Shown piece after piece: positions 1 to 20,041 of a DNA stretch of 64,000 bases (position 1 is the stretch's first letter; the number at the start of each line of letters is the position of its first letter). Source of the DNA: Limnohabitans sp. JirII-31 (GTDB lineage: Bacteria > Pseudomonadota > Gammaproteobacteria > Burkholderiales > Burkholderiaceae_C); contig NZ_NESA01000001.1 of NCBI RefSeq assembly GCF_002778315.1, positions 1 through 64,000 of the forward strand, given 5' to 3'. The notes below the pieces were generated by a model that made no database searches, was not told where the DNA came from, and saw only the letters and a list, made by a program, of their open reading frames with translations. A program made the translations under genes and the position numbers.

Positions 1-3000
1 ACGGTGCAGGCCGATGGCAGTTGGATGGTCACGGTGTTGGCGGCTGACTTGGCCTTGCTGACAGACCAAAGCACGCTGACGGCGAGCCTGGCCGATGTCT
101 ACGGCAACACCGCTTCGGCCACGCGCTTGTTGGGCGTTGACAAAGTGGCACCCAATGCGCCCACCGTTGCCTATGTGAACGACACCGTGGGCACCATCAC
201 CGGCCATGTGGCCAGTGGCGGTGTCAGCGACGACACCCGCCCCACCGTGCGCGTGAGCTTGAGTGGCACCAACGCGGTGGCCAACGACAGCTTGCAGTTG
301 TACGACAACCTCACGCCCATGGGCACTGCGGTGCAACTCACGGGCGCTCAGGTGACGGCAGGTTATGTGGACATCACCACGCCCCTGTTGAGCAACGGCA
401 ACACCTACGCGTTCAACGCCAAGATCACCGATGTGGCGGGCAACGTGGGCACGGCATCTGCGCTGTACACGGTCACCCTTGACACGGTGTCACCCACGCT
501 GGCCATTACCAGCAGCGCCAGCACGCTCAAGGCGGGCGAGACAGCCACCATCAGCTTCACCTTCAGCGAAGCGCCCACGGGCTTTGCGGCAGGCGACGTG
601 ACCACCACCAACGGCACGCTCAGCGGCCTCACGGTCACAGCAGACCCCAAGGTCTACACGGCCACCTTCACGCCCACGGCCAGCTTGGCCAGCGGCAGCG
701 CCAGCATCACCGTGGCCAGCAGTGCCTACACCGATGCGGCAGGCAACAACGGCGGTGCAGGCACCACGCCCAGCATCAGCATCGACACCCTGGCCCCCAC
801 GCTGGCCATCACCAGCAGCGCCAGCACGCTCAAGGCGGGCGAGACAGCCACCATCAGCTTCACCTTCAGCGAAGCGCCCACGGGCTTTGCGGCAGGCGAC
901 GTGACCACCACCAACGGCACGCTCAGCGGCCTCACGGTCACAGCAGACCCCAAGGTCTACACGGCCACCTTCACGCCCACGGCCAGCTTGGCCAGCGGCA
1001 GCGCCAGCATCACCGTGGCCAGCAGTGCCTACACCGATGCGGCAGGCAACAACGGCGGTGCAGGCACCACGCCCAGCATCAGCATCGACACCCTGGCCCC
1101 CACGCTGGCCATCACCAGCAGCGCCAGCACGCTCAAGGCGGGCGAGACAGCCACCATCAGCTTCACCTTCAGCGAAGCGCCCACGGGCTTTGCAGCGGGC
1201 GATGTGGTCACCAGCAACGGCACGCTCAGCGGCCTCACGGTCACGGCAGACCCCAAGGTCTACACAGCCACCTTCACGCCCACGGCCAGCTTGGCCAGTG
1301 GCAGCGCCAGCATCACCGTGGCCAGCAGTGCCTACACCGATGCGGCAGGCAACAACGGCGGTGCGGGCACCACGCCGAGCATCAGCATTGACACCTTGGC
1401 CCCCACGCTGGCCATCAGCAGCAGCGCCAGCACGCTCAAGGCGGGTGAGACAGCCACCATCAGCTTCACCTTCAGCGAAGCACCCACGGGCTTTGCGGCG
1501 GGCGACGTGACCACCACCAACGGCACGCTCAGCGGCCTCACGGTCACAGCAGACCCCAAGGTCTACACCGCCACCTTCACGCCCACGGCCAGCTTGGCCA
1601 GCGGCAGCGCCAGCATCACCGTGGCCAGCAGTGCCTACACCGATGCCGCGGGCAACAACGGCGGCGCGGGCAGCACGCCCAGCATCAGCATCGACACCGT
1701 GTCACCCACGGTCAGCAGTGTGGCCATCACCAGCGCCACGGGCATACAAAACAGCACCCTCAATGCGGGTGACGTGGTGAGCGTGACCGTGACGATGAGC
1801 GAAGCCACGGTGGTCGACACCACGGGTGGCACACCGCGCATTGCCTTGAACATCGGTGGCACCACCGTGTATGCCAGTTATGCCTCGGGCAGCGGCGGCA
1901 CGGCCCTGGTCTTCAACTACACCGTGTTGGCAGGCCAGACCGATGCCAATGGCATCAGCATTGCGGCCAACAGCCTAGCGCTCAACAGCGGCACGCTCAA
2001 AGATGCGGCTGGCAACAGTGCCGCGATCACGCACAGCTTGGTGGCCGACAACGCCAGTTATCTGGTGGACACCACCGCACCCACGGTCAGCAGTGTGGCC
2101 ATCACCGGGGCCACGGGCATTCAAAACAGCACCCTCAATGCGGGGGATGTGGTGAGCGTGACCGTGACCATGAGCGAGGTCACCACCGTCACCGGTACGC
2201 CACAACTCGCCTTGAACATTGGTGGTAACACGGTACAGGCCAGCTACGCCTCGGGCAGTGGCAGCACGGCCTTGGTGTTCAGCTACACCATCTTGGCCGG
2301 ACAGACCGATGCCAACGGCATCAGCATCGACGCCAACAGCCTGGCGCTCAACAGCGGCACCCTCAAAGACGCGGCAGGCAATGTGGCCACGTTGACGCAC
2401 AGCGCCGTCACCGACAACCCGAGCATCTTGGTGGACACCACCGCACCCACGGTCAGCGGTGTGGCGATCACCAGCGCCACCGGCATTCAAAACAGCACCC
2501 TCAATGCGGGCGACGTGGTGAGTGTGACCGTGACCATGAGCGAGGCCACGGTGGTGGACCTCACGGGTGGCACACCGCGCATTGGCTTGAACATCGGTGG
2601 CACCACGGTGTATGCCAGCTACGCCTCGGGCAGTGGTAGCACGGCCTTGGTCTTCAACTACACGGTGCTGGCAGGTCAGACCGATGCCAACGGCATCAGC
2701 ATCGCGGCCAACAGCTTGGCGCTCAACAGCGGCACCCTCAAAGACGCAGCGGGCAACAACGCCACCATCACGCACAGCTTGGTGGCTGATAACGCCAGCT
2801 ACTTGGTGGACACCACGGCACCCACGGTCAGCAGCGTGGCCATCACCGATGCCACGGGCATTCAAAACAACACCCTCAACGCGGGGGACGTGGTGAATGT
2901 GACGGTGACCTTGAATGAGGCCATCACCGTCACCGGTACACCTCAGTTGGCGTTGAATATCGGTGGCACCACCGTGCAAGCCAGCTATGCCTCGGGCAGC

Positions 3001-6000
3001 GGAACCAGCGCTTTGGTGTTCAGCTACACCGTGTTGGCCGGTCAGACCGATGCCAACGGCATCAGCTTGGCGGCCAATGCCTTGAGCTTGAATGGTGGCA
3101 CCCTCAAAGATGCGGCTGGCAACGCCGCCACCCTGAGCAGCAGTTTGGTGTCAGACAACATCAATTACATGGTGGACACCACGGCACCGACCGCTACCTT
3201 GGTGAGCACAGGCAGCATTGCCAGTACCAGCAGCGCCACGGTGAAGAGTTCAGAGGCAGGTACGGCCTATTTGGTCAACAACAGCAACACGGTGTTGAGC
3301 GAGGCAGACATCCTGGCATTGGATGGTTCGCAATGGGTTTCGGGCGCTGTCAGCAGTGCCAACACCAACACCACTGTGGCTTTGTCTGGCTTGGCCGCCG
3401 GAACCATCAAGCTCTACACCGCAGACGCTGCGGGCAACTTGAGCGCCGCTGCCAGCACCAGCATCACCGTCACTGGCACGATTGACTTTGTAGAACTGGG
3501 CTCGACCAAGAGCGGCGACACGGGGGTGAGCAACACCGACTTCATCACCTCGATACAAACCCCCAACAGCATTCGGGTGCACTTCTTGGCGTCCATCATC
3601 ACGGCTGCCAATGCGTCGAGTTACGAAATCAGTGTGGACGGCGGCTTGACCTACACCGTGGCCAGCTATGTGCACTCCAAAGAAGTGTTGATCACATCGC
3701 CCACCTTGTTGATGGGCACCAGCAGCGTGGTGGTGCGCCACAACGAAGGCGGTGGCAACTACTCGCAGATTTACAGCAATCCCTACACCGTCGATCAGAC
3801 CGGCCCCACCATCACCACCGTCACCGACAACGTGGCGGCGGCGGTGACCAACGGTGTGATCGATTTCACGGTGACCTTTGACGATGCCATTTACGGCACT
3901 GTGAGCACCACCAGTTTCACCGCCACCAACGGCACGGTCAGCAGCGTGACCAGCCTGGGCAACAACCAATACACCGTGCGCGTCACGCCCACCGCCAACG
4001 TGGCCAGTGGCAACGTGGCTTTGAGCTTGGTGGGCACAGGCTTGAGCGACACCGCCGGCAACACGGCCACCAACGCCAGCCTGAGTGGTTTGGACAGCCA
4101 AGCGATTGACACCAAAGTGCCCACGGTGAGTGGTGTGGCCATCAGCGGTGCCACGGGCATTCAAAACAGCACCTTGAACGCAGGCGATGTGGTGAGCGTG
4201 ACCGCCACCATGAGCGAAGCCACCGTGGTGGACACCACAAGCGGCACGCCACGCTTAGCCCTCAACATCGGCGGCACCACGGTGTATGCCAACTACGCCT
4301 CGGGCAGTGGCAGCACGGCGCTGGTGTTCACCTACACCGTGTTGGCCGGTCAGACCGATGCCAACGGCATCAGCATTGCGGCCAACAGCTTGGCACTCAA
4401 CAGCGGTACCCTCAAAGATGCCGCTGGCAACAACGCCACGCTCACGCACACGGCGGTGGCAGACAACGCCAGTTATCTGGTGGACACCACCGCACCCACG
4501 ACATTGACAGCGCTCACCCTGACCCCCAGTGGGGGCACGGTGGTGACCAACACGCTCAACGCCAGCAACACCGCCATGGCTTTCTCGGCCACGGTGACGG
4601 CTGGGCAGGCGACCGGTGGCAAGGCCGAGTTTTATGTGGGAGCCAACTTGATTGGCACCGACAGCGCCATTGCAGCAGCAGACACCACGCTGGTTTACAC
4701 CACCAGCGATGGCACCCCCACCGCTGCCGAGGTGCAAGCGGCCATCACGGCGGGCGGGCAAATGAGCGTGATCTTGTACGACGCCGCAGGCAACACCCTC
4801 ACGGCCACCGGCCCCACGTTGACGCGCGATGTGGCGGCGCCCACCGTCAGCAGCGTGGCCATCAGTGGCGCCACAGGCATTCAAAACAACACCCTCAACA
4901 CGGGCGATGTGGTGAGTGTGACCGTGACCATGAGTGAAGTCACCACCGTCACCGGTACGCCGCAGCTGGCCTTGAACATTGGGGGCACCACGGTGCAGGC
5001 CAGCTACGCCTCGGGCAGTGGCAGCACAGCCTTGGTCTTCAACTACACCGTGTTGGCAGGGCAGACCGATGCCAATGGCATCAGCATCGACACCAACAGT
5101 CTGGCGCTCAACAGCGGCACGCTCAAAGACGCCGCGGGCAACAGCGCCACGCTCACACACGCCTCAGTCACGGACAACGCCGGCTATTTGGTGGACACCA
5201 CCGCACCTGTCGCGCCCAACATCACCAGCGTCACCGATGATGTGGGGTCGATCATGGGCGTGGTCAGCAACGGCGGGCGCAGTGACGACACGCTGTTGGT
5301 GGTGCGCGTCAGCCTGAGTGGTACCAATGCAGTGGTGAACGACACCTTGCAGCTGTACGACAACACCAGCGCCGTGGCCAGTGCCGTGACTTTGAGTGCC
5401 AGCCACATCAGCAACGGCTATGTGGACGTCACCACCAACACGCTGACCAACGGCAGCAGCTACGCCTTCAACGCCAAGATCACGGACTTGGCAGGCAACA
5501 TCAGTTCGGCATCGAGCACTTACACGGTGACGGTGGACACCACCGCGCCGACCATGACCATCAGCACCCCCTTGTCGGGAAGCGACAACCTGCTGAGCCA
5601 AAGCGAACTGGATGCGCTGGCCGGTGTGTCTCCGTTTGTGATTCAAGGCACAGGTGTTGGCTTGGAGGTGGGGTCGAGCTACACCCTGGTGCTCAACCGC
5701 ACCACCTACACAGGCACCGTCACGACGGCGAACACCTGGAGTATTGATGTGCCCTATGACGCCATCCAGGCGTTGATGGACGGCAATGCTTACGACGTGC
5801 AGGTGCGCGGTGTAGACGTGGCGGGCAATATGTCTGCGGCAACCACTCAGACCTTGACGGTAGACCTTGCCAACAACGGCGCACCCACCGTGCAACAGGT
5901 GTTGACCAACAGCTTGACACCTACCTTGACGGGCGCAGCTTTTCGGTTGGTGTCTGGGGCTCACACTGCGCTGAGCAATGGCGATGCGTTCACGGTCACC

Positions 6001-9000
6001 ATTCAAAATGCTTCTTACACCTACACCGTGGGCGGTGGCTCCAATCCTGCGGCGCTGAGCTACAACTCGGTGAACCAGTCGTGGAGTTTGGCCTTGCCAT
6101 CGGGCGTGATCACGGCCGATGGTCAATACGATGTGGCGGTGCGCCTGGTGCTGTCCAACGGCACCACTTTGTATGACGGCAGTTCCGGTGAATTGACGGT
6201 GGATCGTGTAGCCCCCAACTTGACGATTTCCACGCTGGCCGGTGACAACACACTCAATGCGCTGGAGGTGCAAAGCGATTTGACCGTGAGCGGCACAGCC
6301 GATATGACCGAGGTGAACAACACGGTCAGCCTCACCGGGTTCAACGGAAAAACCTACACCGCCACCGTCAATGCCTCAGGGCATTGGAGCGCCAACATTG
6401 CTGCGGCTGATCTGGCAGCAACCACAGCGGGCACTGTGCGTGCCCAGCTCACCGACGTCTATGGCAACGTGGCCAGCACCACGCAAGCCTTGGCGGTAGA
6501 CAAAGTGAGCCCCACGGTGACCAGCGTCACCGACAACGTGCCCGGCACAGTGACCTACAACTCGGGTCGTGTCACCTACACCTACACCTTCTCGGAGGCC
6601 GTGACCGGTGGCTTGACCGCCGCTGACTTCACGGTGACCAACGGCACGGTCTACAGCATCACCAGCTTGAATGTGCCTGCCACCCAATGGCAAGTGGTGG
6701 TTGACCCGCAAATGGGGGTGAACAACAGCACCATCACCTTGGTCTTGTCCAGCAATGCGGTGCAAGATTTGGCCGGTAACCCCAGTGTGGCGTATACCGA
6801 CAGCAGCCAAGCCATCAACACCCAAAACCCTGGCTCGCCTTACATCGAAAGCGTGACCGACAACGTGGGCACGATCACGGGTCGCTTGGCCAATGGCGCC
6901 GTCACAGACGATACGGTGCTGCAAGTTCGCGTCGGGTTGGTCAGCTCTGGGGCTGTGGCTGGCAACGTGGTGCGTTTGTTCAACAGTGCTTCTGATTTGA
7001 GCGTTGCGGTCACATTGCAGGCTTCGGACATTTCGAACGGCTATGTCGATGTGGCAACTCCCACGCTGACCACTGGCAACACCTACGTGCTGAACGCGCG
7101 CATCACAGACGCGGGTGGCGGCACGGTCTACAGCACCTCGGGCAACCATTCGGTCACCATTGATGCGACAGCGCCCACCTTCACCAGTGCGGCCACGCCT
7201 TCTGTGACAGACACGGGGGCGGGTGTGACAACTGCCACCACGGTGTACACCGCGGCCAGCACCGATGCTTATGCCGTGACCTACAGCTTGGCTACACCCA
7301 ACACGGGTGACGCACGCTGGTTCACGATCAACAGCAGCACCGGGGTGTTGACGTTCAATGCCACCGAAAAATATGGCGAAACCAACGATTCGGGTGGCGA
7401 CCATGTGTACGACTTCAGCGTCATCGCCAGCGACACAGCGGGCAACACCAGCACCCAGGCGGTCACGCTGACGATGCGCGCCAACGCCGTGTATTTGCAC
7501 GACCTGACCTTGGGCTTGGGTGGCTTTGTCATCAATGGACAAACGCACCGCGACCAAAGTGGCTGGTCGGTCAGCAGTGTGGGCGACGTCAACGGCGATG
7601 GCTTGGGCGATGTGATGGTGGGTGCGTGGCACCCGTGGGGCATTGTGGACGGCTACAGCGGCAGAAGCTATGTGGTGTTTGGCAAGACCGACAGCACAGC
7701 GATTGATTTGTCGGCGGTGGCTGCGGGCACGGGTGGCTTTGTCATCAATGGCCAATGTTCTGCCGACTTCAGCGGCGTGTCGGTCAGCGGCATTGGCGAC
7801 ATCAACGGCGACGGCTTTGCCGACGTGGTGGTGGGCGCCCATTGGGCCGATCTGACTGGCGCAGCCAACGCGGGACGCAGTTATGTGGTGTATGGCAAGT
7901 CCACCACCACCGCTGTGGACTTGTCGGCCATTGTCGCGGGCAGTGGTGGTTTTGTGATCAACGGCGAGTGCTTCAACGACCACAGCGGTTTTTCTGTGCA
8001 CGCCGCAGGCGATGTCAACGGCGACGGCTTGGCCGACCTGATCATTGGCGCGCCGCAGTCAGACTTGCTGGCGGGCAATCGCGCCGGGCGCAGCTATGTG
8101 GTGTTTGGCACCACGGCTTCCACAGCAATTAATTTGTCCAGCATCAGCGCGGGTACGGGCGGCTTTGTCATCAACGCGCAAAGTGCCGAAGACCAAAGCG
8201 GCATCACGGTGACTGGCATTGGCGACTTCAACGGTGACGGCGCAGCAGACCTGCTGGTGGCCACGCCACAGCCCGACCCCACCAGCGGGACCGATGTGGG
8301 ACGTTTTTATGTGGTGTATGGCAAGACCAGCACCAGCGCCGTGAGCTTGTCGGACGTGGCCTCGGGCAGTGGCGGCTTGTTGATTCAAGGCTCAGGTGCA
8401 GGCTATTTGAGTGGTTACTCCAGGGGCCCGGCCAGCGCCGCAGGCGACGTCAACGGCGACGGGTATGCCGATGTGATTTTGGGTGCTTACCAATCGGACA
8501 CTGCCGCTGGCATCAACGCCGGGCGGACTTACGTGGTATTTGGCAACTCAGGCAACAGCACCATTCAAATGTCCAACGTCGCCGCGGGCAGCGGCGGTTT
8601 TGTGATCAACGGTCAATGTGCGGGCGACCAAAGCGGCATGTGGGTGAGCGTGGCCGGGGACATCAACGGGGACGGTTTGGCGGACATGATCATTGGTGCG
8701 CCATTGGCGTCTTCCCTCGGGGGCGCTGGTGCTGGGCGCAGCTATGTGGTGTTTGGCAAAACGGGCACCACCACCGTGGAGTTGTCGGCGATTGCGGCAG
8801 GCTCGGGCGGTTTTGTGATTTACGGTGAAAGCACTTCCGACAACAGTGGCTCGGTCAGCGGTGCTGGCGATGTCAACGGCGATGGCTTGGCCGACTTGAT
8901 CGTGGGTGCTTGGGGCAGCGATGTGGCTTCGGGCAACAACGCAGGGCGCAGCTATGTGATTTTTGGCAGCACCACTGGTGCTTTCGCGCAGACGGCGGTG

Positions 9001-12000
9001 GACCAGATGGGCGACGCCAGTGCCAACACCCTCACCTCAACAGGTACCCAAACCTTGGTGGGCGGTGCGGGCAACGACACCCTCATTGGCGGCGGGGGTG
9101 CCGATGTGCTGTACGGTGGCTCGGGCAACGACGTGTTCGTCATCGGCAGCGGCAACATCAGCAAGTTGACCAGTACCTACAGCGCCGCCGATGGACAACT
9201 GGCGCGCATTGATGGCGGCACAGGGCTGGACACGATTCGCCTGACGGGCGGTGCTAACCTGGACTTGACAAGCATCAGCAATCTGTCGGTCAGTGACCCT
9301 GAGGTGGGCAGCCGCATCAGCAGCATCGAAAAAATAGACCTCTCCACGGACAGCAGCGCCAACACACTGACCTTGGGTGTGCGCGATGTGCAAGACATGG
9401 CAGGCATGAACCTGGTCAACAGCTCTGTCGGCAGCGGTTGGGCCAGTGGCACCTACACCTTGGCCAGCACGGTGCGCATGCATCAGTTGGTGGTGAATGG
9501 CACCGCCAGCGATACCTTGAATTTTGCCAACGCATTCAACAACCTGGGCACGGTGACCAACGCTGGCAACACCTACAACGTGTGGCAAGACAACACCAAC
9601 AGTGTGCAGGTGATTGCTTTCCGTGCGATTGCTCAGCCGAGTGTGGACTTGTCTGCAATCGCAGCGGGTACGGGTGGCTTTGTGATCAATGGCCAATGTG
9701 CGAGCGACCAAAGCGGGTATTCGGTCAGCAGCGCCGGTGACGTGAACGGCGATGGTTTGGCCGACTTGATTGTGGGGGCGCGCCAGTCAGATCCCGCGGC
9801 GGGCGCCGATGCAGGGCGCAGTTATGTGGTGTTTGGCAAGACCGACAACACGGCGATCAATTTATCCGCTGTGGCCGCAGGCACCGGTGGTTTTGTCATC
9901 AATGGCCAATGCGCCAGTGACCAAAGTGGCTATTCGGTCAGCAATGCCGGCGATGTGAACGGTGATGGTCTGGCTGACTTGATTGTTGGGGCATGCTTGT
10001 CGGACCCTGCGACGGGCACAGATGCGGGACGCAGCTATGTCGTGTTTGGTAAGACAGACAGCGCGGCGATCAACCTGTCCGCCATAGCTGCGGGCATAGG
10101 TGGTTTTGTGATGAATGGCCAAGCCGCCAGTGATCAAAGTGGCCTGTCACTCAGTGCCGCGGGTGATGTGAACGGGGATGGTTTGGCCGATTTGATTGTG
10201 GGGGCGCGATTATCAGACCCTGCGGCGGGTCTAGACGCGGGACGCAGCTATGTGGTGTTTGGCAAGACCACCACCACAGCCATCGATTTATCGGCAGTGG
10301 CAGCAGGCACGGGTGGCTTTGTGATCAACGGCCAATGTGCTGGTGAGAACATTGGCAATGCAGTTAGCGCCGCAGGTGACGTGAACGGTGACGGCTTGGC
10401 TGATGTGATTGTGGGCGCAAGCCAGTCTGACCCCGCTGCTGGAGTAGATGCTGGGCGCAGCTATGTGGTGTATGGCAAGACCAACACCACGGGGATTGAT
10501 TTGTCTGCCGTGGCTGCGGGCACGGGTGGCTTTGTGATCAATGGCCAATGTGCTGCTGATATCAGTGGCTGTGCAGTCAGTGCCGCAGGTGACGTGAACG
10601 GTGACGGCTTGGCCGATTTGATTGTGGGTGCACGCAATGCAGACCCTGCGGCTGGCGCGGACGCAGGGCGCAGCTATGTGGTGTTTGGCAAGACCGACAG
10701 CACGGTGATCAACTTATCCACTGTTGCAGCAGGCACCGGCGGTTTTGTGATCAACGGACAGTGCGCTGGTGAGTACAGCGGTTATTCGGTTAGCAATGCA
10801 GGCGATGTGAACGGAGATGGTTTAGCCGATTTGATCATTGGGGCTACTGCTTGGTCGCCTTTTAGTGGGCGTGGCTACGTGGTGTTTGGCAAGACTGGGA
10901 CCACAGCGGTTGATTTATTGGCGGTGGCAACGGGTGTCGGTGGATTTGTGATCAACGGACAGTGCGCGATGGACCAAGTAGGCGTGTCGGTGAGCGCCGC
11001 TGGTGACGTGAATGGTGATGGTTTGGCCGATTTGATCGTAGGCGCAAGTGGGGGTGACCCAGCAGGGGGTACAGACGCAGGTCGCAGCTATGTGATTTTT
11101 GGCAGCACCAGCGGTGCGTTTGCACAGAGCGCGGTGGACCAGATGGGCACTTCAGCCGCTGACACGTTCACTTCAACAGGCAGTCAAACCTTGATGGGTG
11201 GGGCAGGCAACGACACGTTGACGGCCAGTGCGAGCACAGGTGCTGACATTTTGTACGGTGGCTCAGGTGACGATACTTTTGTGGTGACTTCGGCCATGGT
11301 GACCGCTTTGCAAAGCGGCTTTGGCTCGGGCGGCAACACCTCGCAGTTGGCCCGCATCGACGGTGGTGGTGGCAACGACACGCTGCGTGTGACGGGTGGG
11401 GCCAACCTGGACTTGACGCTCATCAGCAACGCGGCGGCATCCAGCCCAGATGGCGGCAGCCGCATCAGCAGCATTGAAAAAATAGACCTGTCCACGGACA
11501 CCAGTGCCAACACACTCACCCTGGGTGTGCGCGATGTGCAAGACATGGCGGGCATGAACCTGATCAACAGCGCCACCAGCGGCTGGGCCAGTGGCACCTA
11601 CACCTTGCCTAGCACGGTGCGTATGCACCAGTTGGTGGTGGACGGTAGCGCGCTTGATACCTTGAACTTTGCCAACGCCTTCAACAGTGTGGGCACGGTG
11701 ACCTACGGCGGCAACACCTACACGGTGTGGCAAGACAACACCAACAGCGTGCAGGTGATGGCCAACCGTGCGATCGCGCAGCCCAGCCTGAATTTATCGG
11801 CCATTGCGGCGAGCACGGGTGGCTTTGTCATCAACGGCCAATGCGCGAGCGATCAAAGCGGCTTTTCGGTCAGCAGTGCCGGTGATGTGAACGGCGACGG
11901 CTTGACAGACTTGATCGTGGGCGCGCCTTATTCAGACCCGGCAGGCGGTGCCAATGCAGGGCGCAGCTATGTGGTGTTTGGCAAGACCGACAACACGGCG

Positions 12001-15000
12001 ATCAATTTGTCTGCGGTGGCCGCAGGCACGGGTGGTTTTGTCATCAATGGCGAGTCGGGCTCGTATGTGGTGGCTGGAAGTACGATTGTTTGCAACGATC
12101 TGAGTGGCTATTCCGTGTCAGGCGTTGGAGACTTCAACGGCGATGGCTTGTCTGATTTGATCGTTGGTGCTTATGCCTCCTCTGCTTCGGGGGCCTTGCA
12201 AAGAGGCCGTAGCTATGTGGTGTACGGCAAAACAAGTGGACTGGCGGTGCAGTTGACCGATGTGTCCAACGGGACCGGTGGTTTTACTGTGGTGGGTCAG
12301 AACGGTTATGACTTCTCCGGCATATCGGTGAGTGCCGCTGGTGACGTCAACGGCGATGGTTTGACCGATGTGATTCTGGGCGCCTGGGGCAACGACGCCG
12401 CAGGGTCTGATCGTGGCTCCAGTTACGTGATGTTTGGCACCACTGCTGCGTTGACAACCGTCAACGTGGCAGCAATAGCCTCAGGCACGGGGGGCTTTGT
12501 CATCAAAGGTCAATGCAACAACGAATGCAGCGGCTACTCTGTGAGCAATGCAGGGGATGTGAACGGGGACGGCTTGTCTGACTTGATCGTTGGCGCACCC
12601 TACTACTACCCGGGCGGCAGCTTCATTGAGCACACCTATGTGGTGTTTGGCCAAACGGGAACGACGGCTGTGGAGTTGTCCGCAGTGGCTGCTACGTCGG
12701 GTGCCACGGGCGGCTTTGTGATCAACGGGCAAGGTTTCAGTGATCGAACAGGTTACTCGGTCAGTGCGGCCGGTGACGTCAACGGCGACGGTTTGGCCGA
12801 TGTGATTGTGGGCGGTTACCTCTCCGATCCAGCATCGGGCGCCAACGCAGGACGCAGCTATGTGGTGTTTGGCAAAACAGGCAGCGCGGCAGTTGATTTG
12901 TCTCTGATCGCTGCCACAGCCGGTGCCACGGGTGGCTTTGTGATCAACGGGCAATGCGCTGCTGATCAAAATGGCATCTCGGTGAGCACGGCCGGTGATA
13001 TGAACGGCGACGGTTTGGCTGATTTGATCGTGGGCGCGAACTACTCTGATCCAGTGTCTGGTAACAACGCAGGGCGCAGCTATGTGGTGTGGGGCAAAAC
13101 GTCGTTCACCGCAGTGGACCTGTCCGCAGTGGCCTTGGGTGTTGGTGGCTTTGCGATCAACGGGCAGTCGGCCAATGACCAAAGTGGTATCTCGGTCAGC
13201 GCAGCAGGGGATGTGAACGGCGATGGCCTGGCTGATTTGATTGTGGGCGCTAACGGTGCAACTTCTTCTGCGGGTCGCAGCTATGTGATTTTTGGCAGCA
13301 CCAGCGGTGCGTTTGCACAGAGCGCGGTGGACCAGATGGGCACTTCAGCCGCTGACACGTTCACTTCAACAGGCAGTCAAACCTTGATGGGTGGGGCAGG
13401 CAACGACACGTTGACGGCCAGTGCGAGCACAGGTGCTGACATTTTGTACGGTGGCTCAGGTGACGATACTTTTGTGGTGACTTCGGCCATGGTGACCGCT
13501 TTGCAAAGCGGCTTTGGCTCGGGTGGCAACACCTCGCAGTTGGCCCGCATCGACGGTGGTGGTGGCAACGACACGCTGCGTGTGACGGGTGGGGCCAACC
13601 TGGACTTGACGCTCATCAGCAACGCGGCGGCATCCAGCCCAGATGGCGGCAGCCGCATCAGCAGCATTGAAAAAATAGACCTGTCCACGGACACCAGTGC
13701 CAACACACTCACCCTGGGTGTGCGCGATGTGCAAGACATGGCGGGCATGAACCTGATCAACAGCGCCACCAGCGGCTGGGCCAGTGGCACCTACACCTTG
13801 GGTAGTACGGTGCGCATGCACCAGTTGGTGGTGGACGGTAGCGCGCTTGATACCTTGAACTTTGCCAACGCCTTCAACAGTGTGGGCACGGTGACCTACG
13901 GCGGCAACACCTACACGGTGTGGCAAGACAACACCAACAGCGTGCAGGTGATGGCCAACAGCACGATTTCACAGCCGACTGTGAACTTGTCTGCGATTGC
14001 AGCAGGCACGGGGGGCTTTGTGATCAACGGCCAGGGTGTGAGTGATCGCAGTGGGTATTCGGTCAGCAACGCCGGCGACGTCAACGGCGACGGCTTGGCC
14101 GACTTGATGGTGGGCGCACTTTATTCCTCTGGCATTGCGGGGGCCAATTCGGGCCGCAGCTATGTGGTGTTTGGCAGCTCATTGGGCACGGCCATCAACC
14201 TGTCGAATGTGGTTGCGGGCACCGGTGGCTTTGTGATCAACGGTGCCAGCGCTGGTGATAACGCAGGCTTTTCGGTGAGCGGGGCTGGCGACGTCAACGG
14301 TGACGGTTTGGCCGATGTGATCGTTGGTGCCAACAGTGCGGTTCTTTCCGGTGCCGGGTCTAACACCGGTGCGAGTTATGTGGTGTTTGGTCAGACGGCA
14401 GGTACAGCCATCAATTTGTCCGATGTAGCCGCAGGCACAGGCGGCTTTTTGATCAAAGGGACGAACTTCACATCCAGCGGCAACTCGGTCAGTGGTGCCG
14501 GTGATGTGAACAACGACGGACTGGCCGACTTGATTGTGGGCGCACGTTTTGGTGACCCGACTGCTTTGACCGGCAACAACAATGCTGGCACCAGTTATGT
14601 GGTGTTTGGCAAAACCGACACGGCGGTTGTGAATTTGTCGGCCATCGACACGACAGGCGTGGCCGTGGGCGGCTTTGTCATCAACGGCCAGGGATCGTCT
14701 GACCAAAGCGGCTACTCGGTCAGCAGCGCAGGCGATGTGAACGGCGACGGATTTGCCGACGTGATTGTTGGTGCTGCATATGCAGACCCGGCTGGCGGCA
14801 TCGATGCGGGCCGCAGCTACGTGGTGTTTGGCAAGGCCAGCACCACGGCCATCAATTTGTCAGACGTTGTGTCGGACACAGGTGGCTTTGTGATCAACGG
14901 GCAAAGTGCCAGCGATCAGGCAGGCTTTTCTGTCAGTGGTGCCGGCGACGTCAACGGCGATGGCTTGTCTGACGTGATTGTGGCTGCGAATCTGTCTGAC

Positions 15001-16161
15001 CCCTTGGCGGGCACCGATGCAGGCCGCAGCTACGTGGTGTTTGGCAAGACCATCTCGGGGGCCATTGACTTGTCGGCTGTGGCTGCGGGCACCGGTGGTT
15101 TTGTGATCAATGGGCAATGTGCTGCGGATCAGCAAGGCAACACGGTCAGCAGTGCGGGTGACATCAACGGGGACGGCTTGGCCGATCTGATTGTGGGGGC
15201 ACCTTTATCGGACCCCAGCGCAGGCAGCAACGCCGGGCGCAGCTATGTGGTGTTTGGCAAGAGCAGCACGACGGGCATTGACTTGTCGGCTGTGGCCATG
15301 GGCATTGGCGGATTTGCCATCACAGGCGAGACGACGAGCGACCAAAGTGGTTACGCCGTCAGCGCTGCAGGGGACGTCAACGGCGACGGTTTGGCCGACT
15401 TGTTGGTGGGAGCCCGGCTTTCTGATTGGGGCGGCGGCGTTGATGCAGGACGCAGCTATGTGATCTTTGGCAGCACCAGTGGTGCGTTTGCGCAAAGCGC
15501 TGTGGACCAAATGGGTACCTCAGGCGCTGACACGCTCACCTCGACGGGCGGGCAAACCTTGATCGGTGGCGCAGGCAATGACACCTTGATCTCCAGCGGT
15601 GCCGACGTGCTGTACGGCGGTCTAGGCAACGATGTGTTTGTGTGGTCATCCGGTATGGCTACGGCGATGAACAACGGTTTGGGCGCTGGAGGCAACACCA
15701 CCCAACTGTCGCGTATCGACGGTGGTGCCGGGATCGATACCTTGCGTTTGTCGTCGGGTCTGGGTTTCAACTTCACCACCCTCAACAACCTCAACTTCTC
15801 TCAGGCCGACGATCCTTCCCGCTTCGCCTCCATGGAAGTCATTGACTTGAAAACCGACACGGCGGTCAATGCGCTTTACATCCGGGCTCACCATGTGATG
15901 GAGACCAGCGAGATGAATGTGTTCAACAGCAGCAACACCACCTACGTCAGTGGCACGGCCTTGGCAGCTTCGATTGCCAAGGTTCAAACCATGATTTGGG
16001 GGGATGCGGGTGACACGCTGAACATTGGCATCACAGGGTGGACCAAACTGGACACGGTGGTCAGTTACCAAGGGCATACCTTGAATGTCTACAACAGCAC
16101 GTCGTATGCTGCACAGTTGTTGATTGAACAAACCATCGTCAATGCGTCACACGTGGTTTGA
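1..16161 (+). CDS. Giant Ig-like / FG-GAP / RTX surface or secreted protein, 5' partial
   Basis: The reading frame is open at the first base, so the true start lies upstream; at least 5386 codons are present. Bases 1-7490 encode Ig-like and cadherin-like beta-sandwich repeats: a run of four 101-residue copies (481-1692), six copies of a roughly 122-residue domain containing ATGIQNSTLNAGD, and a cadherin-like unit near 7165-7490. From about 7507 the protein switches to FG-GAP blades of the type GGFVINGQ...SGYSVSSAGDVNGDGLADLIVGA. These are grouped in four sets of seven, and each set is followed by RTX nonapeptides (GGAGNDTLIGGGGADVLYGG) and a spacer with SSIEKIDLSTD. Family knowledge: RTX repeats bind calcium and usually mark type I secretion, while FG-GAP blades form integrin-like beta-propellers. 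I infer a large extracellular adhesin or matrix protein. No transporter, catalytic domain or outer-membrane anchor is visible in the window. Several long antisense frames inside it are codon-bias shadows. Confidence 0.93.
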   Translation, partial: TVQADGSWMVTVLAADLALLTDQSTLTASLADVYGNTASATRLLGVDKVAPNAPTVAYVNDTVGTITGHVASGGVSDDTRPTVRVSLSGTNAVANDSLQLYDNLTPMGTAVQLTGAQVTAGYVDITTPLLSNGNTYAFNAKITDVAGNVGTASALYTVTLDTVSPTLAITSSASTLKAGETATISFTFSEAPTGFAAGDVTTTNGTLSGLTVTADPKVYTATFTPTASLASGSASITVASSAYTDAAGNNGGAGTTPSISIDTLAPTLAITSSASTLKAGETATISFTFSEAPTGFAAGDVTTTNGTLSGLTVTADPKVYTATFTPTASLASGSASITVASSAYTDAAGNNGGAGTTPSISIDTLAPTLAITSSASTLKAGETATISFTFSEAPTGFAAGDVVTSNGTLSGLTVTADPKVYTATFTPTASLASGSASITVASSAYTDAAGNNGGAGTTPSISIDTLAPTLAISSSASTLKAGETATISFTFSEAPTGFAAGDVTTTNGTLSGLTVTADPKVYTATFTPTASLASGSASITVASSAYTDAAGNNGGAGSTPSISIDTVSPTVSSVAITSATGIQNSTLNAGDVVSVTVTMSEATVVDTTGGTPRIALNIGGTTVYASYASGSGGTALVFNYTVLAGQTDANGISIAANSLALNSGTLKDAAGNSAAITHSLVADNASYLVDTTAPTVSSVAITGATGIQNSTLNAGDVVSVTVTMSEVTTVTGTPQLALNIGGNTVQASYASGSGSTALVFSYTILAGQTDANGISIDANSLALNSGTLKDAAGNVATLTHSAVTDNPSILVDTTAPTVSGVAITSATGIQNSTLNAGDVVSVTVTMSEATVVDLTGGTPRIGLNIGGTTVYASYASGSGSTALVFNYTVLAGQTDANGISIAANSLALNSGTLKDAAGNNATITHSLVADNASYLVDTTAPTVSSVAITDATGIQNNTLNAGDVVNVTVTLNEAITVTGTPQLALNIGGTTVQASYASGSGTSALVFSYTVLAGQTDANGISLAANALSLNGGTLKDAAGNAATLSSSLVSDNINYMVDTTAPTATLVSTGSIASTSSATVKSSEAGTAYLVNNSNTVLSEADILALDGSQWVSGAVSSANTNTTVALSGLAAGTIKLYTADAAGNLSAAASTSITVTGTIDFVELGSTKSGDTGVSNTDFITSIQTPNSIRVHFLASIITAANASSYEISVDGGLTYTVASYVHSKEVLITSPTLLMGTSSVVVRHNEGGGNYSQIYSNPYTVDQTGPTITTVTDNVAAAVTNGVIDFTVTFDDAIYGTVSTTSFTATNGTVSSVTSLGNNQYTVRVTPTANVASGNVALSLVGTGLSDTAGNTATNASLSGLDSQAIDTKVPTVSGVAISGATGIQNSTLNAGDVVSVTATMSEATVVDTTSGTPRLALNIGGTTVYANYASGSGSTALVFTYTVLAGQTDANGISIAANSLALNSGTLKDAAGNNATLTHTAVADNASYLVDTTAPTTLTALTLTPSGGTVVTNTLNASNTAMAFSATVTAGQATGGKAEFYVGANLIGTDSAIAAADTTLVYTTSDGTPTAAEVQAAITAGGQMSVILYDAAGNTLTATGPTLTRDVAAPTVSSVAISGATGIQNNTLNTGDVVSVTVTMSEVTTVTGTPQLALNIGGTTVQASYASGSGSTALVFNYTVLAGQTDANGISIDTNSLALNSGTLKDAAGNSATLTHASVTDNAGYLVDTTAPVAPNITSVTDDVGSIMGVVSNGGRSDDTLLVVRVSLSGTNAVVNDTLQLYDNTSAVASAVTLSASHISNGYVDVTTNTLTNGSSYAFNAKITDLAGNISSASSTYTVTVDTTAPTMTISTPLSGSDNLLSQSELDALAGVSPFVIQGTGVGLEVGSSYTLVLNRTTYTGTVTTANTWSIDVPYDAIQALMDGNAYDVQVRGVDVAGNMSAATTQTLTVDLANNGAPTVQQVLTNSLTPTLTGAAFRLVSGAHTALSNGDAFTVTIQNASYTYTVGGGSNPAALSYNSVNQSWSLALPSGVITADGQYDVAVRLVLSNGTTLYDGSSGELTVDRVAPNLTISTLAGDNTLNALEVQSDLTVSGTADMTEVNNTVSLTGFNGKTYTATVNASGHWSANIAAADLAATTAGTVRAQLTDVYGNVASTTQALAVDKVSPTVTSVTDNVPGTVTYNSGRVTYTYTFSEAVTGGLTAADFTVTNGTVYSITSLNVPATQWQVVVDPQMGVNNSTITLVLSSNAVQDLAGNPSVAYTDSSQAINTQNPGSPYIESVTDNVGTITGRLANGAVTDDTVLQVRVGLVSSGAVAGNVVRLFNSASDLSVAVTLQASDISNGYVDVATPTLTTGNTYVLNARITDAGGGTVYSTSGNHSVTIDATAPTFTSAATPSVTDTGAGVTTATTVYTAASTDAYAVTYSLATPNTGDARWFTINSSTGVLTFNATEKYGETNDSGGDHVYDFSVIASDTAGNTSTQAVTLTMRANAVYLHDLTLGLGGFVINGQTHRDQSGWSVSSVGDVNGDGLGDVMVGAWHPWGIVDGYSGRSYVVFGKTDSTAIDLSAVAAGTGGFVINGQCSADFSGVSVSGIGDINGDGFADVVVGAHWADLTGAANAGRSYVVYGKSTTTAVDLSAIVAGSGGFVINGECFNDHSGFSVHAAGDVNGDGLADLIIGAPQSDLLAGNRAGRSYVVFGTTASTAINLSSISAGTGGFVINAQSAEDQSGITVTGIGDFNGDGAADLLVATPQPDPTSGTDVGRFYVVYGKTSTSAVSLSDVASGSGGLLIQGSGAGYLSGYSRGPASAAGDVNGDGYADVILGAYQSDTAAGINAGRTYVVFGNSGNSTIQMSNVAAGSGGFVINGQCAGDQSGMWVSVAGDINGDGLADMIIGAPLASSLGGAGAGRSYVVFGKTGTTTVELSAIAAGSGGFVIYGESTSDNSGSVSGAGDVNGDGLADLIVGAWGSDVASGNNAGRSYVIFGSTTGAFAQTAVDQMGDASANTLTSTGTQTLVGGAGNDTLIGGGGADVLYGGSGNDVFVIGSGNISKLTSTYSAADGQLARIDGGTGLDTIRLTGGANLDLTSISNLSVSDPEVGSRISSIEKIDLSTDSSANTLTLGVRDVQDMAGMNLVNSSVGSGWASGTYTLASTVRMHQLVVNGTASDTLNFANAFNNLGTVTNAGNTYNVWQDNTNSVQVIAFRAIAQPSVDLSAIAAGTGGFVINGQCASDQSGYSVSSAGDVNGDGLADLIVGARQSDPAAGADAGRSYVVFGKTDNTAINLSAVAAGTGGFVINGQCASDQSGYSVSNAGDVNGDGLADLIVGACLSDPATGTDAGRSYVVFGKTDSAAINLSAIAAGIGGFVMNGQAASDQSGLSLSAAGDVNGDGLADLIVGARLSDPAAGLDAGRSYVVFGKTTTTAIDLSAVAAGTGGFVINGQCAGENIGNAVSAAGDVNGDGLADVIVGASQSDPAAGVDAGRSYVVYGKTNTTGIDLSAVAAGTGGFVINGQCAADISGCAVSAAGDVNGDGLADLIVGARNADPAAGADAGRSYVVFGKTDSTVINLSTVAAGTGGFVINGQCAGEYSGYSVSNAGDVNGDGLADLIIGATAWSPFSGRGYVVFGKTGTTAVDLLAVATGVGGFVINGQCAMDQVGVSVSAAGDVNGDGLADLIVGASGGDPAGGTDAGRSYVIFGSTSGAFAQSAVDQMGTSAADTFTSTGSQTLMGGAGNDTLTASASTGADILYGGSGDDTFVVTSAMVTALQSGFGSGGNTSQLARIDGGGGNDTLRVTGGANLDLTLISNAAASSPDGGSRISSIEKIDLSTDTSANTLTLGVRDVQDMAGMNLINSATSGWASGTYTLPSTVRMHQLVVDGSALDTLNFANAFNSVGTVTYGGNTYTVWQDNTNSVQVMANRAIAQPSLNLSAIAASTGGFVINGQCASDQSGFSVSSAGDVNGDGLTDLIVGAPYSDPAGGANAGRSYVVFGKTDNTAINLSAVAAGTGGFVINGESGSYVVAGSTIVCNDLSGYSVSGVGDFNGDGLSDLIVGAYASSASGALQRGRSYVVYGKTSGLAVQLTDVSNGTGGFTVVGQNGYDFSGISVSAAGDVNGDGLTDVILGAWGNDAAGSDRGSSYVMFGTTAALTTVNVAAIASGTGGFVIKGQCNNECSGYSVSNAGDVNGDGLSDLIVGAPYYYPGGSFIEHTYVVFGQTGTTAVELSAVAATSGATGGFVINGQGFSDRTGYSVSAAGDVNGDGLADVIVGGYLSDPASGANAGRSYVVFGKTGSAAVDLSLIAATAGATGGFVINGQCAADQNGISVSTAGDMNGDGLADLIVGANYSDPVSGNNAGRSYVVWGKTSFTAVDLSAVALGVGGFAINGQSANDQSGISVSAAGDVNGDGLADLIVGANGATSSAGRSYVIFGSTSGAFAQSAVDQMGTSAADTFTSTGSQTLMGGAGNDTLTASASTGADILYGGSGDDTFVVTSAMVTALQSGFGSGGNTSQLARIDGGGGNDTLRVTGGANLDLTLISNAAASSPDGGSRISSIEKIDLSTDTSANTLTLGVRDVQDMAGMNLINSATSGWASGTYTLGSTVRMHQLVVDGSALDTLNFANAFNSVGTVTYGGNTYTVWQDNTNSVQVMANSTISQPTVNLSAIAAGTGGFVINGQGVSDRSGYSVSNAGDVNGDGLADLMVGALYSSGIAGANSGRSYVVFGSSLGTAINLSNVVAGTGGFVINGASAGDNAGFSVSGAGDVNGDGLADVIVGANSAVLSGAGSNTGASYVVFGQTAGTAINLSDVAAGTGGFLIKGTNFTSSGNSVSGAGDVNNDGLADLIVGARFGDPTALTGNNNAGTSYVVFGKTDTAVVNLSAIDTTGVAVGGFVINGQGSSDQSGYSVSSAGDVNGDGFADVIVGAAYADPAGGIDAGRSYVVFGKASTTAINLSDVVSDTGGFVINGQSASDQAGFSVSGAGDVNGDGLSDVIVAANLSDPLAGTDAGRSYVVFGKTISGAIDLSAVAAGTGGFVINGQCAADQQGNTVSSAGDINGDGLADLIVGAPLSDPSAGSNAGRSYVVFGKSSTTGIDLSAVAMGIGGFAITGETTSDQSGYAVSAAGDVNGDGLADLLVGARLSDWGGGVDAGRSYVIFGSTSGAFAQSAVDQMGTSGADTLTSTGGQTLIGGAGNDTLISSGADVLYGGLGNDVFVWSSGMATAMNNGLGAGGNTTQLSRIDGGAGIDTLRLSSGLGFNFTTLNNLNFSQADDPSRFASMEVIDLKTDTAVNALYIRAHHVMETSEMNVFNSSNTTYVSGTALAASIAKVQTMIWGDAGDTLNIGITGWTKLDTVVSYQGHTLNVYNSTSYAAQLLIEQTIVNASHVV
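481..1692 (+). repeat. Four tandem 303-bp repeats
   Basis: Four head-to-tail units begin at 481, 784, 1087 and 1390. Each encodes a 101-residue Ig-like domain starting around SPTLAITSSASTLKAGE and ending at SISID. The units differ at only scattered bases, for example the linker codons and the GDVVTSNG stretch of unit three. This near-identity suggests recent amplification or ongoing recombination, and it makes copy number prone to change or to assembly error. Confidence 0.95.
1705..5205 (+). repeat. Six diverged copies of an Ig-like domain
   Basis: The signature VAI(T/S)xATGIQN(S/N)TLNAGDVV recurs with starts near 1717, 2095, 2458, 2836, 4132 and 4852. The first four are in tandem with a period of about 363-378 bp. 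The last two are separated from them by other Ig-like units (3190-4120 and 4500-4840). The copies share the core SGSGSTALVFxYTVLAGQTDANGIS. They are more diverged than the 303-bp array, so this is an older expansion. Confidence 0.85.
11080..11766 (+). repeat. Near-identical 687-bp block, copy A
   Basis: This block matches 13273-13959 (offset 2193 bp) with only a few differences, such as the codons around 11597-11616. It covers the end of the second blade set, the RTX segment and the spacer. The surrounding blades are far more diverged. Confidence 0.9.
13273..13959 (+). repeat. Near-identical 687-bp block, copy B
   Basis: This is the partner of 11080-11766. The near-identity starts at the last SYVIFGST strand of the third blade set and stops at QVMAN, where the next blade set begins. 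That fits gene conversion or recent segmental duplication within the gene. Confidence 0.9.
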
Positions 16162-16986: not shown

Positions 16987-18195
16987 ATGAACAACACAAC
17001 GCAAACTTTGCCCGTGCTGGTCGCAGGCGGCGGCATTGGTGGATTGGCCGCAGCTTTGGCACTGACGCGCCAGGGCTTTCACGTCAAGGTGCTGGAGCAA
17101 GCGCCCGAGATTGGCGAGATTGGTGCCGGCATTCAGTTGGGGCCCAACGCTTTCCATGCCTTTGACGCCTTGGGTGTGGGTGAGAAAGCCCGCAGCCGCG
17201 CGGTCTATACCGATTACATGGTGATGCATGACGCGATCGACGAATACCAGGTGGGCAAGATCCCTACCGGCGAAGCTTTCATTCAGCGTTTTGGCAACCC
17301 CTATGCGGTGATTCACCGCGTGGACGTGCACACCTCGCTCTATGAAGGCGCACAAGAAACCGGCAAGGTCGAGGTGGTGACGTCCACCCGTGTGGAGCGC
17401 ATCGAGCAAGACGCGCACAGCGTGACGGTGTTCGACCAACATGGCAACGCGCACAAAGGCATTGCACTGATTGGGGCCGATGGCGTGAAGTCGGTCGTGC
17501 GAGCCCAGTTTGTGAACGACCCCGCGCGCATCACGGGCCATGTGGTGTACCGCGCCGTGGTGGACAAAAAAGACTTTCCGGTGGACTTGCAGTGGAACGC
17601 GGCCAGCATTTGGGTGGGGCCGAACTGCCACTTGGTGCATTACCCCTTGCGTGGTGGCGAGCAGTACAACGTGGTGGTGACTTTCCACAGCCGCAAGCAA
17701 GAAGAGTGGGGCGTGACCGATGGCAGCAAAGAAGAAGTGCAAAGCTACTTCCAAGGCATTTGCCCCAAAGCGCGTCAACTGATTGATTTGCCCAAGAGCT
17801 GGCGTCGTTGGGCCACGGCCGACCGCGAGCCCATTGGCCAGTGGTCGTTTGGTCGCGTGACCTTGTTGGGCGATGCCGCCCACCCCACCACACAGTACAT
17901 GGCGCAAGGTGCGTGCATGGCGATTGAAGATGCGGTGACCTTGGGCGAAGCCCTGCGTGTGAACAACAACGACTTTGTCAAAGCCTTCGATTTGTACCAA
18001 CGCGCCCGTGTGGCGCGCACCGCACGCATTGTGTTGTCGGGCCGCGAGATGGGGCGTCTCTACCACGCCAAAGGTGTGGAGCGTTTGGTGCGTAACGATT
18101 TGTGGCGTGGCCGCACGCCTGAGCGCTTCTATGATGCGATGGAATGGCTCTACGGCTGGAATGTGGGCAACTGCTTGTCTGCGGCCACGAACTGA
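16987..18195 (+). CDS. 3-hydroxybenzoate 6-hydroxylase (FAD monooxygenase)
   Basis: This is a single-component flavoprotein hydroxylase of 402 aa. It has an N-terminal FAD fold GGGIGG at residues 14-19, the DG motif (GADGVKSVVR) near residue 160, and the second FAD motif GDAAHP near residue 295. The family adds a hydroxyl para to the existing one using NAD(P)H and O2. The next genes degrade gentisate, so 3-hydroxybenzoate to gentisate is the best assignment. Salicylate 5-type chemistry is less likely because there are no ferredoxin or reductase genes. The ATG is preceded by AAGGG. It is the first gene of a five-gene operon and the protein is cytoplasmic. Confidence 0.82.
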   Translation: MNNTTQTLPVLVAGGGIGGLAAALALTRQGFHVKVLEQAPEIGEIGAGIQLGPNAFHAFDALGVGEKARSRAVYTDYMVMHDAIDEYQVGKIPTGEAFIQRFGNPYAVIHRVDVHTSLYEGAQETGKVEVVTSTRVERIEQDAHSVTVFDQHGNAHKGIALIGADGVKSVVRAQFVNDPARITGHVVYRAVVDKKDFPVDLQWNAASIWVGPNCHLVHYPLRGGEQYNVVVTFHSRKQEEWGVTDGSKEEVQSYFQGICPKARQLIDLPKSWRRWATADREPIGQWSFGRVTLLGDAAHPTTQYMAQGACMAIEDAVTLGEALRVNNNDFVKAFDLYQRARVARTARIVLSGREMGRLYHAKGVERLVRNDLWRGRTPERFYDAMEWLYGWNVGNCLSAATN

Positions 18196-18221
18196 TCAAT
18201 GTCACTCAGATTGGAATTTGC

Positions 18222-19259
18222 ATGAACGATCTTGGAAAACTCGAAGACCTGCCAGCCGACTACCGTGCCGAGCTGACCAGCCACAACCTGGTGCCACTGT
18301 GGCCCAGTCTGCGTGGCGTGCTGCCGCCGGGCAAGCCGCGTCCCAACACCCGTGCCACGTTTTGGGCTTACAACACCATCAAGCCCTTGTTGCTCAAAGC
18401 GGGTGAGTTGACGCCCATCGAAAAAGCCGAGCGTCGCGTGCTGGTGCTGGCCAACCCTGGCCACGGTTTGGAAAAAATGCAAGCCAGTGCCGCCATGTAC
18501 TTGGGCATGCAACTGTTGCTGCCTGGTGAGTGGGCGCCTTCGCACCGTCACACGCCCAATGCTGTGCGCATGATTGTGGAAGGCGAGGGCGCTTACACCA
18601 CGGTAGACGGCGAGAAGTGCCCGATGAGCCGGGGCGATTTGATTTTGACCCCCACCGGTCTGTGGCACGAACACGGCCACGACGGCGACCAGCCGGTGGT
18701 GTGGTTGGACGTGCTCGATTTGCCACTGGTGTATTACATGGAAGCGTCGTACCACATCAACGGCGAACGTCAAACCGTGCAGCCTGGTCGTGGCGATCGC
18801 CAGTACGCCCGTGGCGGCATGTTGCCCACGCCGGTGTTTGAGCGCTCAGCCAAGACGTACCCCATGTTGCGTTACCCCTGGGCCGAAGCGCGTGCTGCCT
18901 TGCTGACCATGGGCGAAGACATGCCGCAACAAGAGGCTGTGCAGCTGACCTATGTGAACCCCGAAACAGGCGAAGACGCTGAAAACATTCTGGGCTTTTA
19001 CGCGCTGATGTTGCGCCCTGGTCAAAGCTTGCGTTTGCCCGCTCGCTCACCCGCGTGTGTGTTCCACGTCATCGAAGGCGGGGCCGACATCACGGTGGAA
19101 GATCAGGCCTTCAGCCTGACAGAAGCCGACACCTGCTGTGCGCCCGGCTACACCGCGGTGACTTTGAAAAACCGCCACGCTGACAAGCCCACGTTTGTGT
19201 TCATGGCCGACGAGTCGCCCTTGCATCGCAAACTGGGTGTGTACGAAAACCGCGGCTAA
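18222..19259 (+). CDS. Gentisate 1,2-dioxygenase
   Basis: This 345-aa bicupin ring-cleavage enzyme converts gentisate and O2 to maleylpyruvate using Fe(II). The N-terminal cupin carries PSHRHT near residues 106-111, which supplies the iron-binding histidines. The second cupin (ACVFHVIEGGADITVED) starts near residue 277. The length fits the family (about 340-350). The start is ATG 18222, 26 bp after the hydroxylase stop. It sits between the hydroxylase that would make gentisate and the hydrolase and isomerase that consume maleylpyruvate. Confidence 0.92.
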   Translation: MNDLGKLEDLPADYRAELTSHNLVPLWPSLRGVLPPGKPRPNTRATFWAYNTIKPLLLKAGELTPIEKAERRVLVLANPGHGLEKMQASAAMYLGMQLLLPGEWAPSHRHTPNAVRMIVEGEGAYTTVDGEKCPMSRGDLILTPTGLWHEHGHDGDQPVVWLDVLDLPLVYYMEASYHINGERQTVQPGRGDRQYARGGMLPTPVFERSAKTYPMLRYPWAEARAALLTMGEDMPQQEAVQLTYVNPETGEDAENILGFYALMLRPGQSLRLPARSPACVFHVIEGGADITVEDQAFSLTEADTCCAPGYTAVTLKNRHADKPTFVFMADESPLHRKLGVYENRG

Positions 19260-19329
19260 ACCGCTGTACTTTTTCCCTTTTCTGCGGGGCCACGGCGTGT
19301 GCCCCGCATTCATTTTTTAGAAAACTCTC

Positions 19330-20034: not shown

Positions 20035-20041
20035 GGCACTG

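Follow-up and report, generated by a model that had tools for sequence, protein, structure and literature searches.

The analysed window covers positions 1–64,000 of contig C1 (NZ_NESA01000001.1; 744,320 bases) in the 3.48-Mb, 44-contig genome of Limnohabitans sp. JirII-31. It begins within an open reading frame (ORF) on the forward strand (1–16161; 5,386 codons) whose 5′ end is open at the contig edge, so that the start of the encoded protein lies outside the window. The chain starts with immunoglobulin-like (Ig-like) repeats of the Big_12 and Ca_tandemer types, extending from residue 1 to approximately residue 2495, and continues with four modules beginning at residues 2496, 3214, 3929 and 4660 (nucleotides 7486, 9640, 11785 and 13978), each consisting of a predicted β-propeller and a linker with RTX repeats. 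A first-pass annotation, made by a model from the letters of the sequence, had placed four propeller-RTX units at 7507..16158 on an Ig-like stalk, and the mapped module starts and the repeats ahead of them agree with both statements.

Results

The Pfam profile FG-GAP (PF01839) matched the ORF 28 times above its curated cut-off, in four runs of exactly seven. Of the 35 matches in the whole genome, the remaining seven were in a sibling gene on contig C42. The calcium-loop pattern DxNxDG was intact in all 28 blades and fell into the same four sets of seven; in 500 shuffles that kept the composition of the 2,891 residues analysed, it occurred 0.15 times on average and at most 3 times. Profile and motif counts thus agree with the first-pass annotation on exactly seven blades per module. 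In silico, module 4 was predicted to fold as a seven-bladed integrin-type propeller, the outcome that the first-pass annotation had expected of a structure prediction; modules 1–3 show 56–62% identity to the modelled module, the likeness of the modules to module 1 or 4 is 56–67%, and the propellers share 60–71% amino acid identity among themselves. Having the seven repeats, the predicted fold and the calcium-binding loop, the domains are classed on sequence and modelling as integrin-type seven-bladed FG-GAP β-propellers. The earlier picture, in which the chain may fold as four calcium-loaded propellers, is supported on these grounds, but its separators have to be revised from RTX rolls alone to RTX segments joined to a further domain.

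GGxGxD RTX motifs are present behind all four propellers (four behind module 1 and three behind each of modules 2–4), and Pfam HemolysinCabind exceeded its cut-off of 23 bits in the three linkers scanned in isolation, those of modules 1, 2 and 4 (Table 1), with linker 3 represented by its 98% DNA identity to linker 2. An RTX segment behind every propeller, as originally reported, is thereby confirmed. The RTX nonapeptides account for only about 35 of the approximately 225 linker residues, and the remainder is mostly a second β-rich domain, the cap, for which the scan of linkers 1, 2 and 4 gave no Pfam family at cut-off. The cap found behind each RTX segment (e.g., 11292–11784) recurs in homologs and is, at the sequence level, a candidate new domain family.

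Table 1. Features of the ORF at the start of the window
Feature	Position	Strand	Evidence
Ig-like repeat stalk (Big_12 / Ca_tandemer)	1..7485	+	Pfam Big_12 E 6.1e-120 (6 stretches); NCBIfam Ca_tandemer E 3.2e-30
Propeller 1, seven FG-GAP blades	7486..8970 (end approximate)	+	7 PF01839 matches; 7 DxNxDG loops
Linker 1, RTX nonapeptides (about 9055–9144) and cap domain	8971..9639	+	HemolysinCabind 42.8 bits; alignment
Propeller 2, seven FG-GAP blades	9640..11106 (end approximate)	+	7 PF01839 matches
Linker 2, RTX nonapeptides (about 11191–11292) and cap	11107..11784	+	HemolysinCabind 31.4 bits; 276-nucleotide exact match to linker 3
Propeller 3, seven FG-GAP blades	11785..13299 (end approximate)	+	7 PF01839 matches
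Linker 3, RTX nonapeptides (about 13384–13485) and cap	13300..13977	+	3 GGxGxD motifs; near-identity to linker 2
Propeller 4, seven FG-GAP blades; module with predicted structure	13978..15474	+	
C-terminal RTX (about 15559–15651) and terminal cap; presumed type I secretion signal at the extreme end	15475..16158	+	HemolysinCabind 27.9 bits; final residues like those of the sibling on C42

A giant protein on contig C12 of the same genome has a C-terminal RTX-cap end similar to that of the linkers, without propellers (26% identity over 220 columns, E 9e-7 in a single comparison). As such an end exists without propellers, each module seems to duplicate an entire C-terminal end. This third giant protein of the genome (C12:89092–99888; 3,599 codons) has two RTX-cap ends by eye and no FG-GAP match. 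The last residues of the window protein resemble those of the sibling on C42, and we presume that the C terminus contains an uncleaved type I secretion signal. A QLLI-type motif was seen at 52 of 120 terminal ends versus 51 of 203 internal linker ends in homologs, and a stricter form of it at 31 of 120 versus 9 of 203. The idea of a secretion motif restricted to the true C terminus was rejected, as the QLLI-type motif is present in internal linkers too and its placement is a mere tendency.

We compared the linkers with the propellers that they join. In DNA, linkers 2 and 3 share an exact stretch of 276 bases within their RTX-cap portions, whereas the propellers of modules 2 and 3 reach 71% identity as protein. 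Within proteins, the median linker identity was above the median propeller identity in 43 of 63 cases and not above it in 20 (window protein included). In pairwise comparisons, which are not independent of each other, linker identity exceeded propeller identity for 191 of 260 pairs within proteins and for 56 of 600 random pairs between proteins. The pattern points to linkers being homogenised or exchanged within proteins as the propellers diverge, suggesting recombination at the linkers. Plain constraint as the cause of linker similarity is made less likely by the contrast between the within- and between-protein pairs, with the reservations that the pairs are interdependent and that 20 proteins lack a higher linker median.

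Variation among the blades was unevenly distributed. In 17 blades of the window and in the 564 of 2,523 homolog blades that are 71 residues long, the calcium loop was almost fixed, with mean entropies of 0.35 and 0.61 bits, respectively. The BC and DA loops were the most variable, with 1.64 and 1.62 bits in the window and 2.56 bits each in the homologs. The CD segment was close behind (1.32 and 2.29 bits, respectively). According to the strand topology, the BC and DA loops are on one face of the propeller, opposite the calcium loop.

The sibling, a second gene, is represented on contig C42 by its C-terminal 883 codons, which encode Cadherin-like repeats, a single propeller of seven blades and a comparable RTX-cap end. 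For the window gene, the first 127 bases of C1 occur elsewhere only at one end of C19 (3,499 bases), and the first 127 bases of C4 have an exact match only at the other end of C19, with inexact copies elsewhere at 74–87%. As the ends of C1 and C4 match opposite ends of C19, the three contigs appear to be linked, in the order C4–C19–C1, through a repeat that the assembly left unresolved. C4 contains an open frame that matches: it spans 1,011 codons, encodes Ig-like repeats and has a likely start at MPAELNPP, where no signal peptide is evident by eye. With such a join, the complete protein would exceed 6,000 residues. The upstream end, left to be found by the first-pass annotation, thus has a probable position on C4, but one reached through contig ends. 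A domain common to the N termini of the C4 ORF and of an adhesin in a same-genus genome (G070) was weak (E 3e-6 with composition correction off) and is not relied on. At about 500–1700 of the window, near-identical Ig-like repeats stand in tandem (LAPTLAITSSASTLKAGET...), perhaps tied to the assembly break upstream.

Searches with a single module returned at least 7,984 proteins and with all four modules 641 long proteins, of which 120 were listed, one of them the window's own. The 119 others stem from a four-propeller query and a length window and are hence a biased sample; defining a cluster as at least four calcium cores by motif count, all 119 contained two or more (range 2–10), distributed as 15 proteins with two clusters, 30 with three, 30 with four, 27 with five, 9 with six, 7 with seven and 1 with ten. 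Exactly seven cores were counted in 424 of 488 clusters. RTX motifs followed every cluster in 91 of the 119 listed proteins; 52 had at least four clusters with RTX behind each, and 68 at least two clusters, all of seven cores, with RTX behind each. In 93 of 108 cases, RTX followed the last propeller at a distance of at most 300 residues; it preceded the first in 12 of 80. Other proteins with repeated propeller-RTX units, a search for which the first-pass annotation had named as a check, are therefore many, and uniqueness of the four-fold array is ruled out.

In a less biased set of 79 named loci, 72 had a detected cluster and 14 of these had at least two clusters with RTX behind each; by title, we take the 14 to be lineages of Pseudomonadota, including Magnetococcales. 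Where a cluster was detected in loci titled archaeal, Bacteroidetes or Acidobacteria, it had no RTX behind it, and some planctomycete, cyanobacterial and Chloroflexi loci had RTX behind the cluster. Single-propeller homologs made up 104 of the 120 entries listed in the single-module search, which admits only 0.55–1.75 times 727 residues and in which many entries are fragments. Closer to the source, any match was found in 13 of 41 genomes of the genus, and among 60 genomes of the same family a match covered most of the module in 5 (own included), the other 10 of the 15 matching genomes being weak. The longest frame met in the analysis, of 13,784 codons, is located in a same-genus genome (G070:C3, about 69,065–110,400, the upper end reckoned from length) and has three seven-bladed clusters and RTX motifs near its end.

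The genome has a TolC-ABC-HlyD row on contig C10 (ABC, ATP-binding cassette). It comprises HlyD, above its curated cut-off; an ABC gene whose best match is the LssB model, at 635.9 bits against a cut-off of 693.1; and an outer-membrane gene best matched by the type I TolC model, at 110.7 bits against 225.15. A second set lies on C4, approximately 100 kb from the presumed N-terminal ORF: at about 101,700–112,000, an ORF of 1,484 codons encodes a double ABC transporter of the type I secretion kind, and beside it lie genes for HlyD, for an outer-membrane channel that matches the NodT family best, and for a VCBS-RTX protein. In G070, TolC (391088–392428), ABC (from 392432) and HlyD (394588–395751) are followed by a 4,597-codon ORF (395787–409577) with two seven-bladed clusters, and ABC and HlyD are found about 20 kb from a cluster on its contig C21. 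In G069 and G089, ABC and HlyD directly adjoin propeller ORFs, with 4–5 cores per piece by motif count. The same-genus gene rows suggest a type I export route.

Behind the adhesin-like ORF, the window contains (16987–20680) genes for 3-hydroxybenzoate 6-monooxygenase (above cut-off), a gentisate 1,2-dioxygenase-like protein (below cut-off), a fumarylacetoacetate hydrolase family member and a maleylacetoacetate isomerase-like protein, a row that looks like the gentisate pathway. Further on (24616–26987), a 3-(3-hydroxyphenyl)propionate hydroxylase-like gene adjoins a PcaR/KdgR-like regulator gene.

Discussion

In our view, the ORF probably encodes the C-terminal region of a giant RTX adhesin that is secreted by a type I system and bears integrin-like heads in a multivalent array. 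What the analysis shows are the blade counts, the calcium loops, the fold predicted for one module, the order of propeller and then RTX, and the adjacency of secretion genes to propeller genes in the same genus; we infer export of the window protein, calcium binding, a stepwise calcium ratchet and a ligand-binding role. In such a protein, the Ig-like repeats would form the stalk and the four integrin-alpha-type propellers, with seven calcium loops each, the multivalent binding head, each propeller having its own short RTX roll and cap behind it. Substrates of type I secretion leave the cell C terminus first, and RTX rolls fold on calcium outside the cell; a 2016 paper by Bumba reportedly deals with this subject. 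Since the C terminus would be out first, each RTX segment would emerge just ahead of its propeller and, on binding external calcium, should fold first, help to pull out the propeller behind it and seed its folding.

Several observations weigh against this interpretation. No ligand is known for the propellers, and the structure prediction covers module 4 only. The concentration of variation in the BC and DA loops would also be expected from constraint on the calcium loop, and the CD segment is nearly as variable (2.29 versus 2.56 bits in the homologs). No secretion genes adjoin the window gene, the sets on C10 and C4 both being unlinked, and the linked system anticipated by the first-pass annotation was found only beside propeller genes of same-genus genomes. 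ABC and HlyD were directly adjacent in only 3 of 14 related-genome neighbourhoods, a sample in which several contigs are short and genomes with weaker matches are left out, and near a propeller gene in only 1 of the 79 named loci, Serratia oryzae (L091); any match to the secretion query set was seen in 8 of the 79, the seven besides L091 being weaker and without HlyD. Type I secretion linkage as a general rule is ruled out by these counts. The LapG protease (PF06035) had no match at E 0.001 in the genome, a Caulobacter control being positive, and retention and release of the Lap type is not supported.

The propellers could instead be spacers, calcium-stabilised discs that, placed in tandem, lengthen or stiffen a protein of the surface or matrix whose ligand site is elsewhere, for example in the stalk or the terminal cap. 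The mutual likeness of the modules and the range of cluster numbers in the listed arrays, varying as extender repeats do, would fit such a role, and calcium-bound tandem repeats serve as extenders in published RTX adhesins (PMC7493085, in the part available). We nevertheless judge it unlikely: the highest variation is in the BC and DA loops, propellers that diverge as their linkers tend to homogenise are better explained as diversified heads than as uniform spacers, and single-propeller homologs are numerous among the entries listed within the length window, fragments included.

Two further explanations are far less credible. One is a cytoplasmic protein for calcium storage or signalling, which we regard as very improbable. 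It would be consistent with the lack of an evident signal peptide, but type I substrates typically have none at the N terminus. The 2011 study of bacterial propellers calls their location unknown and considers the cytoplasm (PMC3192720, in the part available), yet RTX motifs follow most last propellers and type I secretion genes occur beside or near homologs in four genomes (G070, G069, G089 and L091). The other, that the four modules reflect misassembly or a repeat in decay, gains something from the contig beginning inside the gene and from the near-identity of linkers 2 and 3 over several hundred bases, where short reads can mislead. Against it are an uninterrupted frame of 5,386 codons, the differences among the propellers and the comparable arrays in the 119 other long homologs listed, and we think it hardly plausible.

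Returning to the secreted adhesin, we tentatively propose a wider model, which at present is a possibility more than an expectation. The arrays would form a modular family of type I-secreted proteins whose unit of propeller, RTX and cap is a copied C-terminal export end; the RTX segments would fold outside one after another and ratchet the propellers out, and recombination at the homogenised linkers would add, remove and swap propellers, changing the number and specificity of heads.

Comparison with Known Systems

Classical RTX adhesins, LapA and SiiE being examples, have one C-terminal RTX block. The window protein differs in repeating RTX and cap after each propeller. Its ORF has the glycine-rich nonapeptide RTX repeats and the Ig-like extender repeats of that class, and ABC, HlyD and TolC genes exist unlinked on C10 and linked to homologs in G070, G069, G089 and L091. 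Giant size, an Ig-like repeat stalk and C-terminal RTX are shared with published RTX adhesins, as are ABC-HlyD-TolC genes in so far as they lie beside some homologs, while propellers and FG-GAP go unmentioned in the available part of that account (PMC7493085). BapP of Pseudoalteromonas tunicata is, similarly, a calcium-dependent biofilm adhesin with a β-propeller and Ig-like repeats, possibly type I exported; it differs in having one predicted five-bladed N-terminal propeller and a Sec signal peptide, and the available text on it mentions neither FG-GAP nor integrin (PMC12153261).

From the human integrin alpha head, the window propellers differ in having calcium loops in all seven blades, as the motif stabilises only several integrin blades (PMC3192720, as far as its available text goes). 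A whole alpha subunit is not resembled: FG-GAP is the sole integrin domain found, Pfam at E 0.001 giving on the window ORF only Big_12/Big_13, FG-GAP, FG-GAP_3, RTX and CarG-like (overlapping the FG-GAP region), with no integrin thigh or calf domains there or, by Pfam, on the C4 ORF.

Literature searches combining FG-GAP, type I secretion and RTX in those words gave no match within a scope that leaves out most subscription journals, where the architecture may be described. As far as the available texts show, one paper describes highly repetitive FG-GAP propellers (PMC9218822), one treats the propeller superfamily (PMC8023676), and one in which FG-GAP and RTX appear together concerns a wild boar integrin targeted by RTX toxins (PMC2151945). 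The closest precedent is Chouhan et al. (2011), who described bacterial integrin-type propellers with seven FG-GAP repeats, one calcium site per blade and, in some sequences, two tandem copies, leaving cellular location and role open (PMC3192720, in the part available). The repeats and calcium sites are the same here. RTX and secretion are absent from that main text, whereas the window protein carries four propellers on an Ig-like stalk, every one of them paired with an RTX segment and a cap, and some homologs have type I secretion genes beside them. The gene rows suggest that at least some bacteria carry propellers on exported proteins of the adhesin type, and with them the question of location and role becomes testable. 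If the propellers are ligand-binding heads, bacteria would be using integrin-like recognition heads for adhesion in multivalent form, and the repeated RTX units would offer a natural test of calcium-driven folding pulling type I substrates out stepwise. The first-pass annotation did not recognise the architecture as described; this stands for the combination of FG-GAP, RTX and type I secretion in the literature searched, but not for the propellers, published even in tandem, nor for arrays of 2–10 clusters, widespread in databases. Seven-bladed bacterial propellers are already known, and the integrin-like array with RTX and cap per propeller is a variation on known RTX adhesin and propeller themes.
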